64,000 nucleotides of DNA, taken from NCBI GenBank assembly GCA_028045305.1, contig JAOFTV010000001.1, forward strand, positions 184,355 to 248,354, given 5' to 3'. Shown piece after piece: positions 32,174 to 45,263 of this stretch. The notes beneath the pieces were generated by a model that was given only the letters and a program-made list of their open reading frames with translations, searched no databases and had not been told where the DNA came from. The stretch is from Opitutales bacterium. GTDB lineage: Bacteria > Verrucomicrobiota > Verrucomicrobiia > Opitutales > Seribacteraceae. Each line of letters opens with the position of its first letter. The stretch's first letter is position 1. The position numbers and the translations under genes are program-made.

Positions 32174-34042
32174 ATGAATCAACATTCAAAAAGACGTGAA
32201 TTTCTTCGGGTGATTGGTGGGGTAGGGATTACTTCCATGTTTGCTCCCAATTATGTAATTGGGGCAAAGCCAAGTAGTGCTCTGAGTCGCTCAGGAGTTT
32301 TCCTCGAGGCATCATCCTTTGCCAAAACTGGCGGATGGAAAATTGATACCCAGCATTATTTACAAATGGGAGGAAATTATTTACTCGCTCATGGGATGGG
32401 CAAACCCGTCGAAGATGCGCAGACTACCATTGATTTACCCAGTGCGGGGAAATGGAATGTCTGGGTAAGAAACCGGGACTGGTGTAAAGGCGACTGGCAG
32501 TCTCCCGGGCGGTTTGAGGTGATGGTCGAAGGAAAGTCGTTGGAGGTAACCTTCGGCGAAGCTGATGAATCCTGGCATTGGCAATCCGGAGGAAGTGTGG
32601 AAATTGCCAAGGCTGGTAAAACCAAAGTCTCTCTGCGTGACCTTACTGGATTTGATGGCCGTTGTGATGCTATTTATTTCACCCAAGAATCAGATCCTCA
32701 ATTACCCGGGGATGACCTTAAGGAATTATCGGACTGGAAAGATGAAGTCAGTGGGCGGTCAAAGGAAAAGGTAGAGGAACTTTCTTTTGATGTCGTGATC
32801 GTTGGAGGAGGCATGTCCGGTTGTGGTGCCGCTTTGGCTGCTCGGTCGCAGGGGCTTAAAGTAGCCCTAATCCAGGATCGTCCCTTATTTGGGGGAAATG
32901 CGAGTGAAGAGGTACGAGTACATTCTTTGGGTATTCATGGTTACGGTACCAAAATCTTAAAAAAGATAGATACCGCTCATTATCCCAATGGCCATGCTAA
33001 GGCAAAAAATGATCAGGAAAAGCGGGAACAGGCCATGGCTCAATCTGGCGTTGATCTTTTTGCTCATCACCTTGCCTGTGGTCTGGAAAAGGATGGTAAT
33101 CAAATTGTAAGTGTTGAAGCTAGGGAAGTTAATTCGGGCCGGATTAAACGATTTAGTGCCCCTTCTTTTATTGATGCCACTGGAGATGGCTGGCTAGGCT
33201 ATTGGGCAGGTGCGGATTATCGCTACGGCCGGGAGGCTGCCTCTGAGCACAATGAGGGGTGGGATAAGTATGGAGACCTGTGGAGTCCTGAAAAACCAGA
33301 CAATCGGGTAATGGGGACAAGCGTGCTTTGGAACAGTGTACGTTCCAAGACCAAACAGGATTTCCCCAAGGTTCCTTGGGCTTTACCCGTGGCAGGAAAT
33401 CATGCTGCGATTAATGGGGAATGGTACTGGGAATATTCAGAGAATAAGTTAAATCAAATTGATGATGCAGAGGCGATTCGGGATCACATGTTGCGGGCTA
33501 TTTTCGGAAGTTTTTCCAATGCCAAGAAAAACCCCAAATATGCGCCTAATCGTTTGGCATGGGTGGCTTATGTCGGAGGGAAGCGTGAATCCCGGAGGAT
33601 CATGGGTGATCATATTTATGACATGCATGATGCGGTCGAACGCAGAGAATTTTCGGATGCCGTGGTCGTTGAGAAAAGAGAGGTGGATGGTCATTTTCAG
33701 CGAAAACTAAAGGGCTCAAAGCAGGATTTTCTATCTGCTGCTATGTTTCGACATACCGGTGGTCACTATTACATCCCTTTTCGTAGTTTTTATTCTAGGA
33801 ATCTTTCCAACCTAATGATGGCGGGTCGTTGTTTTAGTTGCACTCATGTCGGACTTTGCGGCCCTCGGGTGATGAATACCTGTGGGCAAATGGGGATCGC
33901 TACAGGTTTTGCTGCAGCCTTGTGTAAAAAACATAATGCCAACCCCCGAGAAATAGGAAAGTCTCATATATCGGAACTAAGAAAGTTAATTGGATTTGAT
34001 GGATCCAAACCTCTTGGTAATCCAAGTAAGCCCGGCCACTGA
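32174..34042 (+). CDS. Tat-exported FAD-dependent oxidoreductase
   Basis: KRREFLRVIGGVG; dinucleotide fold VVIVGGGMSGCGAALAARSQGLKVALIQDRPLFGGNASEE; C-terminal LMMAGRCFSCTHVGLCGPRVMNTCGQMGIATGFAAAL. Confidence 0.88.
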   Translation: MNQHSKRREFLRVIGGVGITSMFAPNYVIGAKPSSALSRSGVFLEASSFAKTGGWKIDTQHYLQMGGNYLLAHGMGKPVEDAQTTIDLPSAGKWNVWVRNRDWCKGDWQSPGRFEVMVEGKSLEVTFGEADESWHWQSGGSVEIAKAGKTKVSLRDLTGFDGRCDAIYFTQESDPQLPGDDLKELSDWKDEVSGRSKEKVEELSFDVVIVGGGMSGCGAALAARSQGLKVALIQDRPLFGGNASEEVRVHSLGIHGYGTKILKKIDTAHYPNGHAKAKNDQEKREQAMAQSGVDLFAHHLACGLEKDGNQIVSVEAREVNSGRIKRFSAPSFIDATGDGWLGYWAGADYRYGREAASEHNEGWDKYGDLWSPEKPDNRVMGTSVLWNSVRSKTKQDFPKVPWALPVAGNHAAINGEWYWEYSENKLNQIDDAEAIRDHMLRAIFGSFSNAKKNPKYAPNRLAWVAYVGGKRESRRIMGDHIYDMHDAVERREFSDAVVVEKREVDGHFQRKLKGSKQDFLSAAMFRHTGGHYYIPFRSFYSRNLSNLMMAGRCFSCTHVGLCGPRVMNTCGQMGIATGFAAALCKKHNANPREIGKSHISELRKLIGFDGSKPLGNPSKPGH

Positions 34043-34049
34043 TGGGTGA

Positions 34050-35030
34050 ATGAGGCATTTAGTAAATTTTGGCCTGCTCTTTAGCTTTCTTGCCCTGGCT
34101 ATTACGGGCGGGTGGGCTTACTTTCGCCCTTTTTCCCTTACAGCTACACAGGTTCATTTGCTTGCAGGCTTTATCACTCTGGCTCTAGTGGTTTTGCACT
34201 TGTCCGCCCGCCTTCCTTACTTTCGTAACCGAACAAATAAAGGGCATGGTAGGGATAAGTTTCGCAAACAACTGCTTATTTTACTGATTCTATTTGGAGG
34301 TCTGCTCTATGCAGCGGTTGAAAATATTCCTCCCGTTTCCTGGTTGATTGATGGGAGTTATGAGTCTCGGAACCGAGCGGAGATCGTTCGATCTTCGAGC
34401 CTGGCCGCTTTTTCTAAACCAGCACCTCATCGAAAATTGATTATTCGTGATTGCCGTGAGAAAAACTCTTCGGGTTTATCTGTTCTACTTCATTTCCCAG
34501 AAAACCTGAAGACCATGCCATCGGTTGCGGTTTGGGCGGAGAGCACTACTGGGTCGATGATCGAGACCCTGTATTTAGAGCAATCCCTCGCCTATTCTCC
34601 TACTCCTTTGTGGGAAGATTACCGGACTGAGAGGCACCACATTCTGCCCCTGTGGCGTCACCGCTATACCTTGATTTCTGGAATCGCTCCATCGGGGGAT
34701 GTGGACTCCACCTCCGGCGCCACCCAGTCTCACCAATACGCACTGGATCCTTATTTAGTGAAGGGTCAGGAGAAGGAATTTGTACTCTGTGTCGAAATTA
34801 ATGCACCTTTTGATTCCAACCCAAGCTTTCCTGATAAATTATTGGGTCAACCCTCTTTGATCTACACCTGTTTGATCGAAGTGGACCGTGATGATCCTTA
34901 CTACCTTCTCGAACTAACCGGGCATGGGGGAGGCGATGCCATCGAAACCGGTAACTTTCAATATGATTTTGATGGGATTGGATCTGCTCTATACCTGCGA
35001 GATCTTTTTCTCACTAAGGTTGAGAAATGA
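34050..35030 (+). CDS. Small membrane protein with DUF4405/PepSY-like heme-b candidate helices and extracytoplasmic DUF2271-like domain
   Basis: About three TM helices; His pair in TM (QVHLLAGFITLALVVLHLS, 14 residues apart); DVDSTSGATQSH motif; 7 bp after the FAD oxidoreductase. Confidence 0.6.
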   Translation: MRHLVNFGLLFSFLALAITGGWAYFRPFSLTATQVHLLAGFITLALVVLHLSARLPYFRNRTNKGHGRDKFRKQLLILLILFGGLLYAAVENIPPVSWLIDGSYESRNRAEIVRSSSLAAFSKPAPHRKLIIRDCREKNSSGLSVLLHFPENLKTMPSVAVWAESTTGSMIETLYLEQSLAYSPTPLWEDYRTERHHILPLWRHRYTLISGIAPSGDVDSTSGATQSHQYALDPYLVKGQEKEFVLCVEINAPFDSNPSFPDKLLGQPSLIYTCLIEVDRDDPYYLLELTGHGGGDAIETGNFQYDFDGIGSALYLRDLFLTKVEK

Positions 35031-41620: not shown

Positions 41621-42583
41621 TCAGGGCTTTTCGATCTTCTGAAAAAAGGAGTTCTCGTTTTCTCGCTCAATTTGCAAAAGAGCACTGTCCACGATTTCAA
41701 AAGCAGATTCAATACTTTGATCCACATAGCTGAGGTACCACTCGTCTTTTTCTTGGTCCAAGGAAGGATAGCCCACAAGTTCAAGTAGTTGAAACGTTCG
41801 GGGGTCAAAATTATCCACTTCCACTTCATAAACCAGGGAAGGTTGGTCATCCAGTTGGCTGGATGGATCATTGGGTTGGTTGATTTCGAGCATCACCCGG
41901 TAGGGCATCGAGGAATTTTGGTCTTTGGGCAGGATGTAATCTGATGGATCGAAGGAACCATTTGCAGTAGCCTCTGAAATCGCATCAATTGATTCATCCA
42001 GGGACAACTGTTTTTCCTCTGCATCTCGTTTCGCTTGTTCCCAACCCTTGACCTTAAAGGCCCAGTAGGGGAGTTGTTTCTGGCTGTCGTTCAGGTCAGT
42101 TGAATAGAGAGTCTTGATATGATAAAGAGACTGATTTTCTAGCCAAATCGCTAAATGAGGAGGGTTTTGCGGATCATAACTTGGACCGGTTCGTACATCC
42201 AAAAGTAATTTGTAACCAGGGTCTGGTGAGTACTGATAGGTGAGACCCTTCTCTTCCAGTTCAAACATATCCAAAGCTGGTCCAAGGTTACCACTTAATC
42301 CAAGAACAGCCTTGATGGGTGCTGGTTGGTAGTAAAAGAATGCAGTGATTAAAGCAACCGCAAGTCCGACTGCCATTGCGGTACTATGCTTAAAATATTT
42401 TTTGAGAGGAACAATATTGTTGAGAATATGCCCAACAACCACCGCAATGAAAACGAACCCGGATAAGGCGTGTAGGCCGATAATTTCGATGGAGAATGGC
42501 TGTGAAAAGGCATAAATGCCCGACAATGCCATGACCAAAAAGAGGAGGGCATTGAAAAGAGATATGATCCGCCTTCTGTTCAA
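41621..42583 (-). CDS. Small membrane protein, paralogue-like of 34050-35030 (DUF4405/PepSY-like plus DUF2271-like)
   Basis: TM segment with His pair (LHALSGFVFIAVVVGHILN, 14 apart); DAISEATANG aligned with DSTSGATQSH; VMLEINQPNDPS vs LCVEINAPFDSN; QLLELVGYP vs YLLELTGHG. Confidence 0.6.
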   Translation of the reverse strand: MNRRRIISLFNALLFLVMALSGIYAFSQPFSIEIIGLHALSGFVFIAVVVGHILNNIVPLKKYFKHSTAMAVGLAVALITAFFYYQPAPIKAVLGLSGNLGPALDMFELEEKGLTYQYSPDPGYKLLLDVRTGPSYDPQNPPHLAIWLENQSLYHIKTLYSTDLNDSQKQLPYWAFKVKGWEQAKRDAEEKQLSLDESIDAISEATANGSFDPSDYILPKDQNSSMPYRVMLEINQPNDPSSQLDDQPSLVYEVEVDNFDPRTFQLLELVGYPSLDQEKDEWYLSYVDQSIESAFEIVDSALLQIERENENSFFQKIEKP

Positions 42584-42589
42584 ACTCTC

Positions 42590-43966
42590 TTAAGACTTGG
42601 AGGGTACAATTGCTCCATGTTCATGTAACAGGGAGTAAATATCATCCAGAGGAACTTCTTGGGGGGTTGTTGAAGACTTTGCGGCGAGCACTGCAGTACA
42701 GGCTGCTGCCTGCCCCATTCCCATGCAGGATGCCTGTACCCGTGCTGCAGAATTGGCATAGCGATCACTGGATAGGCAACGACCTGCAACCATTAAATTC
42801 TTGGATCCCTTCGGAATCAGCGAGCCTCTTGGAATGGTTGGAACCACACCTCTCTTAAGATGTTTGGGTACCACACCATCCTTGGTGTGCAAGTCGATTG
42901 GGTAAAAGGAATAACACAGGGCATCATCAAATATTCTGCCGTGCTGGTAGTCATGGACGGTAAGGGTCGTCTCCCCTTTGATACGAAAAGTCTCACGGGT
43001 TGCGGTCTCGTTCATCATTCTGTCAATGCTGGCATTCTTTCCTCCAGGGATAGTCTTGAGAAACTTGAGCATTCTCAGAACTGATTTTCTACCTGCCAAG
43101 TTGGTTTGGGTTTGGGTGCCCGCATCTGTGGAATCGGCACCAAAGATATGATTCACATTTCCTCGGGTGCTACGGATTGGTTGCATCACATTACCGCTCC
43201 AGGTATCTCCTTTCTGCAAGCGACCTTCCTTGATGGCCTCATTATACATTTGCTGAATTTGCGTGGCGTTTTTGTTGACTACTGCCATATCAAGTCCCTT
43301 GTAAATAACTACCTGCGTACCAGGCTGACGCTCATCTCCACGCAACCGCTCAAATCCTAGCATCCCAACCACGGTGGCATTTCCAGTGCAGTCTATAATT
43401 TGTTTGCAACGCAATGAATAGCTGACTCCCTGCCCTCGAACATCGACTATCCAGCCCTCGGGAACTTGGCTAACCTTTTCTGGGAATTGATAGTAAGCGA
43501 GTGATACGCCTGCATCCAAGCAGGCTTCTTCCGCAAGCAGGGAATACAACTGACCATTTAAATCAACATGATAGGGAACATGGGATCGATGATTTTTGGT
43601 GAAATCCTGAAGCTTACGACCATCAATTTCCACAGATTTTTCGACCAGTTCCCAACCAATTCCGGAAATGACCTGCTTGCCCCAAGCGTGAAAAAGTCCA
43701 GGGAAGCAAACACCACCGGTAGTCGTGGTTCCTCCCAATTGGGAATTTCTTTCAAGCAGAACAGTCTTGGCTCCCAAACGACCGGCTTGGATAGCTGCCA
43801 CATGTCCGGCGGACCCACCACCGACAACCAGAATATCGACATCAAGGATCGAAGTATGTTCGTTTACTGCAGGAGGGTTCTTGGCATTTGCCTTACAGAC
43901 TAGACCGGAGGAAGCAAGAATGGCTGTTCCAGCAACTTTCGATTTAATAAAGTTTCTTCGATTCAT
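42590..43966 (-). CDS. Tat-exported FAD-dependent oxidoreductase
   Basis: NRRNFIKSKVAGTAILASS; VDILVVGGGSAGHVAAIQAGRLGAKTVLLERNSQLGGTTTTGGVCFPG; NLMVAGRCLSSDRYANSAARVQASCMGMGQAA. Confidence 0.9.
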   Translation of the reverse strand: MNRRNFIKSKVAGTAILASSGLVCKANAKNPPAVNEHTSILDVDILVVGGGSAGHVAAIQAGRLGAKTVLLERNSQLGGTTTTGGVCFPGLFHAWGKQVISGIGWELVEKSVEIDGRKLQDFTKNHRSHVPYHVDLNGQLYSLLAEEACLDAGVSLAYYQFPEKVSQVPEGWIVDVRGQGVSYSLRCKQIIDCTGNATVVGMLGFERLRGDERQPGTQVVIYKGLDMAVVNKNATQIQQMYNEAIKEGRLQKGDTWSGNVMQPIRSTRGNVNHIFGADSTDAGTQTQTNLAGRKSVLRMLKFLKTIPGGKNASIDRMMNETATRETFRIKGETTLTVHDYQHGRIFDDALCYSFYPIDLHTKDGVVPKHLKRGVVPTIPRGSLIPKGSKNLMVAGRCLSSDRYANSAARVQASCMGMGQAAACTAVLAAKSSTTPQEVPLDDIYSLLHEHGAIVPSKS

Positions 43967-44153
43967 AATTTGATAAATTTAATTCAAGGTTTGGAGCTTG
44001 TGACCATGTTCCAAAGCCTAAATCTTAGGTTTGATAATATTAGTATAGAAGTTTTTAAATTAATAAGTGTGGTTTTATGAATTCCATATAGTTCATACTA
44101 AAAATTCAGTAAGAATTGTGTAATGGCTGATAACAAGAAGAAATCAGATGGAA

Positions 44154-45263
44154 TTATAAATTATTTTTGGCAGAAAAAAGGCGTTGGTAGGCCGTACTGT
44201 ATTGGAATTCTATTTTATCGTCTACTTCTTTGCAAAAGCGAGCGACCAGATTCATTTCTTCGGCTTTTTTCATGCCCTCCTGCAGTCCCATGACCATCAA
44301 GGCTGTGGCCCAGGCATCCGCATCCCTGGCAGTGGGGGCAAATGCATTGACTGCAATTAAATTATGCTCAATTGGACTTCCTGTTTTGGGACTCAATAAA
44401 TGAGAAGCACTTCGATGGGATTTCGGGTTTGTTTTTTTGATTCGGTAGGTGCCAGAAGTGGCCACTGCATAGTTACGAAGGGGGACGGACACTATGATAT
44501 CTTTTCTGGATCCACCATTTTCCAGTCCGACAATCCATCCCTTTCCACCTCTGCCTTTTCCATTGGCTCTAACTTCTCCGCCAATTTCGACGAGATAATT
44601 TTCAAAATTCAAGCGTTCTAAGAGGTCGCATATTTGATCAATAATTTCTCCTTTAGCTGAGGCAGAAAGATCAAGTTGCAGGGCTGGGATTTTTTTACGA
44701 ACCCTTCCTTTTGGTAACATTTCAAGGTTTTCCATTCCGGTAATTTTTCGCATCTTAGTAATTTGTTGCTCAGTAGGGATGGTGGACCGTGAATTACCCT
44801 GAGGGCCAAATCCCCAAAGGTTTACCAGGGGGCCTAGGGTCGGATCAAGCAGACCTGCGGTCTCACGGTGCATCCATTGGGCATGCTTTAAGAGACCATG
44901 CAGTTGGGGGTGAATGACCATATCGTTCGAGGACTTGTTGGCGTTGAATTGGAAAAGTTCGGAGTCTGGCCGCCAATGAGAAAAGATTTTATCCGCAGCC
45001 TCGAGATTTTGGACGATATCTTTTTGTAGTTTTACTTTCTCGAAAGTTTGATCCTTTAACACCTGGACCATCCAGGTTGTACCCAAGGCATTCCCGGAGA
45101 GCTTGGTGAGGGTGGGGACTTTCGTTGCATCTTGCTGGGTGCACCCGCCAAGCCATAGACATGATGCCAAGCATAAGAACGATAAAATTGAGCCGATCCA
45201 CCCTGGCAGATAGAAATTAATACCGCTCTTTGGGCTCCGGTAGGTATTGAACAAAATCACCAT
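44154..45263 (-). CDS. apbE: FAD:protein FMN transferase (ApbE family lipoprotein)
   Basis: Lipobox WLGGC; LSGNALGTTWMVQV; LDPTLGPLVNLWGFGP; DLSASAKGEIIDQIC; NYLVEIGGEVRANG; SHLLSPKTGSPIEHNL; ARDADAWATALMVMG. Confidence 0.92.
   Translation of the reverse strand: MVILFNTYRSPKSGINFYLPGWIGSILSFLCLASCLWLGGCTQQDATKVPTLTKLSGNALGTTWMVQVLKDQTFEKVKLQKDIVQNLEAADKIFSHWRPDSELFQFNANKSSNDMVIHPQLHGLLKHAQWMHRETAGLLDPTLGPLVNLWGFGPQGNSRSTIPTEQQITKMRKITGMENLEMLPKGRVRKKIPALQLDLSASAKGEIIDQICDLLERLNFENYLVEIGGEVRANGKGRGGKGWIVGLENGGSRKDIIVSVPLRNYAVATSGTYRIKKTNPKSHRSASHLLSPKTGSPIEHNLIAVNAFAPTARDADAWATALMVMGLQEGMKKAEEMNLVARFCKEVDDKIEFQYSTAYQRLFSAKNNL

Follow-up and report, generated by a model that had tools for sequence, protein, structure and literature searches.

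A FAD oxidoreductase and a membrane protein encoded by adjoining genes of an Opitutales metagenome assembly (Verrucomicrobiota), here called FAD2 and MEM2, probably act as an extracytosolic electron-transfer pair, in which MEM2, flavinylated by an ApbE FMN transferase, would carry electrons to or from the respiratory chain. The window, that is, the whole stretch of 64,000 nucleotides that was analysed, holds a second such pair, FAD1 and MEM1.

The FAD2–MEM2 locus and its ApbE neighbor

An earlier note had placed three genes side by side on the minus strand, and all three open reading frames were confirmed. FAD2 (42590..43966, minus strand, 458 aa) is a PF12831 FAD oxidoreductase with a Tat signal, and is followed after 6 bp by MEM2 (41621..42583, minus strand, TTG start, 320 aa), a membrane protein of three helices whose C-terminal domain is periplasmic. 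Upstream, an ApbE FAD:protein FMN transferase (44154..45263, minus strand, 369 aa) carries a lipoprotein-type signal (LGGC), keeps the S/H/D catalytic positions, and ends 187 bp before FAD2, where about 190 bp had been estimated. The other pair lies on the plus strand and comprises FAD1 (32174..34042), likewise a Tat-type PF12831 FAD oxidoreductase but bearing an N-terminal beta domain that weakly matches Golvesin_C, and, after 7 bp, MEM1 (34050..35030), a MEM2 paralogue with a canonical ApbE motif. The pairs had been described as two independent occurrences with the same gene order and spacing. The order is indeed the same and the spacing nearly so, but both pairs also co-occur in another genome of the genus (G007) and in others of the family (G010, G015, G022, G025), and they are paralogous and not independent inventions. 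Window neighbors identified with Pfam encode sulfatases, a beta-helix protein, DUF1501, and an M24 peptidase. Scans for promoters and terminators found no more sites than in shuffled sequences. The ApbE reading frame begins within the 3' end of the upstream sulfatase gene, an overlap of 47 bp (45217-45263) that recurs in locus L057.

The transferase is complete: it scores 232.5 bits against the ApbE profile (cut-off 25.6) and can be aligned over its full length to FMN transferases of solved structure, keeping the ATSG, SHLL, and DADAWAT positions. Direct linkage of ApbE to the pair is seen in the window's genus (G000, G002, G003, G006, G007) and in G047; G168 and G345 have the order ApbE-FAD2-MEM2, with ApbE overlapping FAD2 by 4 bp, and G409 has overlapping genes in the order FAD1-MEM1-ApbE. 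ApbE adjoins the pair in a minority of loci only. The linked transferases are scattered over the ApbE tree, which means that three or more lineages either gained or retained the linkage. ApbE is encoded in 29 of the 29 MEM-bearing genomes searched, and the single genome of 41 that lacks it (G004) also lacks MEM.

FMN_bind, DUF3570, and NqrB/RnfD are absent from the window's genome and seven genus mates, and no DUF2271 match above the cut-off was found in the window's own genome. With ApbE present in a genus that lacks a known ApbE substrate, MEM1 and MEM2 are the best candidates for that role; together with the linkage in at least three lineages, this supports the earlier view of ApbE as the maturation enzyme. 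Co-occurrence of MEM with ApbE of the window's type is weak (21 of 29 MEM-bearing against 4 of 12 MEM-less genomes, Fisher p = 0.034, from hand counts of incomplete MAGs), and all four of these MEM-less genomes carry a NapH-like FMN_bind protein beside that ApbE. A second, distant ApbE (L088:7074-8075; C1:87136-87963 in the window's own genome) is not beside any recognised flavinylation substrate, and an ApbE of its clade is present even in a member of the genus that has no MEM gene (G005).

Membrane protein architecture and predicted flavinylation motif

MEM1 and MEM2 are homologous, with 25% identity over 340 columns (E = 2e-13) in pairwise alignment. The equal spacing of their His pairs, pointed out previously, is borne out: H38 and H52 of MEM2 (42428..42472, minus strand) and H36 and H50 of MEM1 lie 14 residues apart in helix 2. 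Both residues, predicted heme b ligands, are kept in every relative in which helix 2 is present in the multiple alignment. MEM2 has three hydrophobic segments, and the positions of its basic residues, N-terminal and in the loop following helix 2, put the C-terminal domain outside.

Profile matches are weak yet repeated across many members, with DUF4405 at the N-terminal end and DUF2271 at the C-terminal end. For DUF4405 (PF14358, cut-off 26.7 bits), MEM2 and MEM1 stay below the cut-off with 10.8 and 25.6 bits, and one relative (L233) passes it with 28.6 bits. DUF2271 (PF10029) matches MEM2 at 16.3 bits, below its cut-off of 27.3, and the best of 15 MEM members reaches E = 2.2e-5 with this profile. 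To judge from these matches, MEM2 seems to be a fusion of a DUF4405-type cytochrome with a DUF2271-type flavinylation domain. Heme b binding is established for DUF4405 proteins (PMC11334425), and ApbE is known to flavinylate DUF2271 (PMC8238504). A DUF4405 domain has six helices and four central His, whereas each MEM chain has three hydrophobic segments and two conserved His; a dimer could supply the four. Neither MEM alignment, used as a profile against solved structures, found a meaningful match, and the AlphaFold2 models of MEM2 and FAD2 were left unused as their pLDDT (38 and 35) was too low. Relatives of the MEM flavin domain also occur as soluble, lipoprotein-like proteins that lack the helices (L242:6082-6780 and L243:5707-6405; motifs DAITGPT and DALTGPT); these two lie near dehydrogenase-type genes.

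The ApbE-type motif of MEM2 is DAISEAT (residues 200-206; 41966..41986, minus strand), with Thr206 as the predicted FMN acceptor, and that of MEM1, whose gene lies at a distance of about 7 kb, is the canonical DSTSGAT (residues 219-225; 34704..34724, plus strand). The alignment of the two motifs proposed in the earlier note is recovered in the multiple alignment of relatives but not in two-sequence alignments. The SEAT of MEM2 departs from the [S/T]GA[S/T] pattern, which MEM1 and several MEM2 orthologues follow with SGAT; nearly all MEM1 members read D-x-x-[ST]-G-x-T. Among MEM2 members the Gly position is occupied by G, E, A, D, S, Q, or R, with Glu also found beyond the window's genus (G010, G025, G031, G034), and a tree computed with the motif columns left out requires at least seven changes at this position. 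The predicted acceptor is Thr in all members of the multiple alignment except for one with Ser, and is constant in the outgroup motifs LAVSGAT, DAVSSPT, DAITQPT, and HAMARAT.

Since Thr is kept at every state of the neighboring position, the SEAT motif is probably relaxed and still used for flavinylation, and not dead. Were it dead, MEM2 would be a plain heme carrier, or one with non-covalently bound flavin, and ApbE would serve MEM1. MEM2 does lack the Gly on which ApbE activity partly depends: where PMC12052999 cites Bertsova et al. 2019, a Gly to Ala change in another ApbE target is given as reducing flavinylation to about half. Moreover, a canonical MEM1 is available in the same genome, and genomes with MEM1 only carry ApbE too. 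This alternative is nevertheless unlikely, given that a dead site would be expected to lose its Thr and that ApbE adjoins the Glu-bearing copy and not MEM1. The G-bearing L075 and L076 also speak against it, falling within an otherwise Glu/Ala/Asp subclade whose inner branches lack resolution. If the relaxed motif is indeed used, ApbE would accept D-x-x-S-E-A-T, a motif excluded by the known rule. The natural G/E/A/D/S series on a fixed Thr offers a ready-made test of the strictness of flavinylation.

The FAD enzymes and a proposed electron route

FAD2 and FAD1 match PF12831 with 260.8 and 217.1 bits, respectively (cut-off 27), and have this fold alone in common (30% identity over only 132 aa, E = 1e-11), in line with the original description of FAD2 as a different oxidoreductase. 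Searches of solved structures with either enzyme returned matches mostly to dinucleotide-binding N-terminal motifs, and no known substrate was found for paired PF12831 enzymes. The window's genome encodes several PF12831 flavoenzyme copies. A twin-arginine motif is present in nearly all paired FAD enzymes with an intact N terminus, including FAD1 and FAD2. Tat export was considered as a mark of all membrane-linked PF12831 enzymes and rejected, as those linked to NapH-like proteins in sister genomes appear to be Sec-type.

Gene content, homology, pairing, the conserved His and Thr residues, ApbE linkage, and discordant histories of the partners are observed directly; from them we infer the heme, FMN, complex, substrate, and electron direction of the following model. 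FAD2 would fold in the cytoplasm with its FAD, be exported by the Tat route, and in the periplasm oxidise (more likely) or reduce a small substrate or sugar, oxidation being preferred on account of the neighboring sulfatase and probable polysaccharide-degradation genes. MEM2 would span the inner membrane, its N terminus on the cytoplasmic side, holding heme b between the two His of helix 2, probably from a dimer, and FMN on Thr206 of the periplasmic domain, attached by the neighboring ApbE. Electrons would pass along the route FAD, FMN, heme, and quinone. FAD1 and MEM1 would form a paralogous unit with a different substrate, the membrane protein being a port with an exchangeable enzyme.

The same components might also run in the other direction, with MEM2 passing electrons from the quinol pool to FAD2 as a periplasmic terminal reductase. 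This reading partly coincides with the model above and draws on the known flavinylated flavoenzymes of PF00890, which serve as respiratory reductases (PMC8238504), but FAD1 and FAD2 belong to PF12831 and not to that group. The sulfatase and probable polysaccharide-degradation setting, while not decisive, suggests oxidation of a carbohydrate-derived substrate, and the reductase reading is judged rather less likely. Far more doubtful is an assimilatory ferric reductase resembling the PepSY/DUF2271 systems, in which MEM2 would pass electrons outwards to iron and FAD2 would be incidental. Clusters of DUF2271 and PepSY are tied to iron elsewhere (PMC8238504); here, Pfam profiles for PepSY (PF03929 / PF16357) had zero matches among the five proteins, the conserved partner is a FAD enzyme, and the Pfam-identified neighbors in the window are not iron genes. 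An extracytosolic pair in which flavinylated MEM2 exchanges electrons with the respiratory chain is the preferred explanation.

Flavinylated DUF2271, DUF4405 cytochromes, and modular NapH-like conduits are all known, and the pair resembles each in part. DUF2271/PepSY-like cytochromes (PMC8238504) share an ApbE substrate domain with an [S/T]GA[S/T]-type motif that is tied to a membrane cytochrome; however, DUF2271 is in most of those cases secreted as a protein of its own and partnered by PepSY, whereas here one protein combines the DUF4405-like three-helix part with the flavin domain and has a PF12831 enzyme as its partner. With the DUF4405 domain, MEM2 has conserved membrane-helix His in common; DUF4405 and FezC have both been shown to bind heme b, FezC being modelled as a homodimer (PMC11334425). 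MEM2 differs in having three helices, not six, and a fused periplasmic flavin domain. NapH-like and NosR-like systems (PMC8238504) are likewise modular membrane electron conduits for various periplasmic oxidoreductases, but are based on iron-sulfur centers and FMN_bind; the combination of Fer4_5 (PF12801) and FMN_bind, present in sister genomes, is lacking from the window's genus. Flavinylated fumarate-reductase-like enzymes also link an exported FAD enzyme to the membrane through ApbE-attached FMN. In contrast to these PF00890 enzymes, which often carry their own FMN domain, the FMN domain is here on the membrane partner of a PF12831 enzyme.

Conservation of the pair and exchange of its enzyme

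A search with a MEM profile found relatives in 30 of 110 related genomes; in an even sampling of the phylum, 18 of 388 genomes contained them. Counting a PF12831 gene within 300 bp on the same strand as a pair, 44 MEM genes outside the window, from several families and classes, adjoin such a gene (20 MEM1 + FAD1, 22 MEM2 + FAD2, and two other combinations), most commonly with gaps of 4-8 bp. Nine intact MEM genes lack a directly adjacent PF12831 gene: three are MEM2 genes of Opitutales, one has a sulfatase gene in between, and five come from the genus g108 and carry the motif DGLSAAT. One further MEM gene (L067) lies at a contig end. The earlier suggestion of a functional unit, to be sought in other Verrucomicrobiota, is supported by the 44 loci; both points on which it had been staked, significant homology between the membrane proteins and pairing beyond this genome, hold.

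The two partners have different histories. MEM2 of the window is 61-72% identical to most MEM2 of the family and 45-46% to those of four distant genomes (G071, G287, G303, G407), while FAD2 is about 51% identical to FAD2 of its family mates and 72-76% to that of the same distant genomes. The MEM2 tree unites the family with support of 100/99, whereas a constraint that makes the family's FAD2 monophyletic is rejected, with a log-likelihood lower by 230 and an AU p of about 3e-54. Transfer of a FAD2 gene, or old duplication with differential loss, before a retained MEM2 would explain this pattern, the enzyme apparently having been exchanged in the window's lineage and MEM2 kept. With FAD2 grouping with distant lineages and MEM2 following the family, the membrane protein appears to be a reusable electron port.

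It is this sharing of FAD2 with distant lineages by a partner that follows its family which, on sequence comparison, is new here. The literature searched yielded no description of a one-protein DUF4405-like/DUF2271-like port, of PF12831 enzymes as its partners, or of such units in Verrucomicrobiota. Tentatively, with the balance leaning slightly against it, a one-protein flavin-heme port may serve interchangeable PF12831 enzymes in several classes of Verrucomicrobiota. If so, the large, substrate-orphan PF12831 family would gain a respiratory function. The link of the paired enzymes to a membrane electron port predicts that they are respiratory and periplasmic, and the exchange of the enzyme points to separate evolution of port and enzyme.

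In sister genomes, a FAD1-like PF12831 enzyme is followed by a NapH-like protein (two FMN_bind, Fer4_5) with two SGAT motifs and by an ApbE of the window's clade (L134:2-4595; L256:1686-6704; L118, L119, L120, L125, L128, L136, L139, L141, L142, L147). This is a third enzyme/port combination, and the principle seems to be a PF12831 enzyme joined to an exchangeable flavinylated membrane port.

Two further loci were observed. L225:7064-10380 (G303) has two tandem FAD2-type genes before one MEM2, possibly an intermediate of enzyme exchange. The pair of L087, from a genome of another genus (G039), is nearly identical to that of the window's genus and carries DAISDAT, which may reflect a recent transfer or a binning error.
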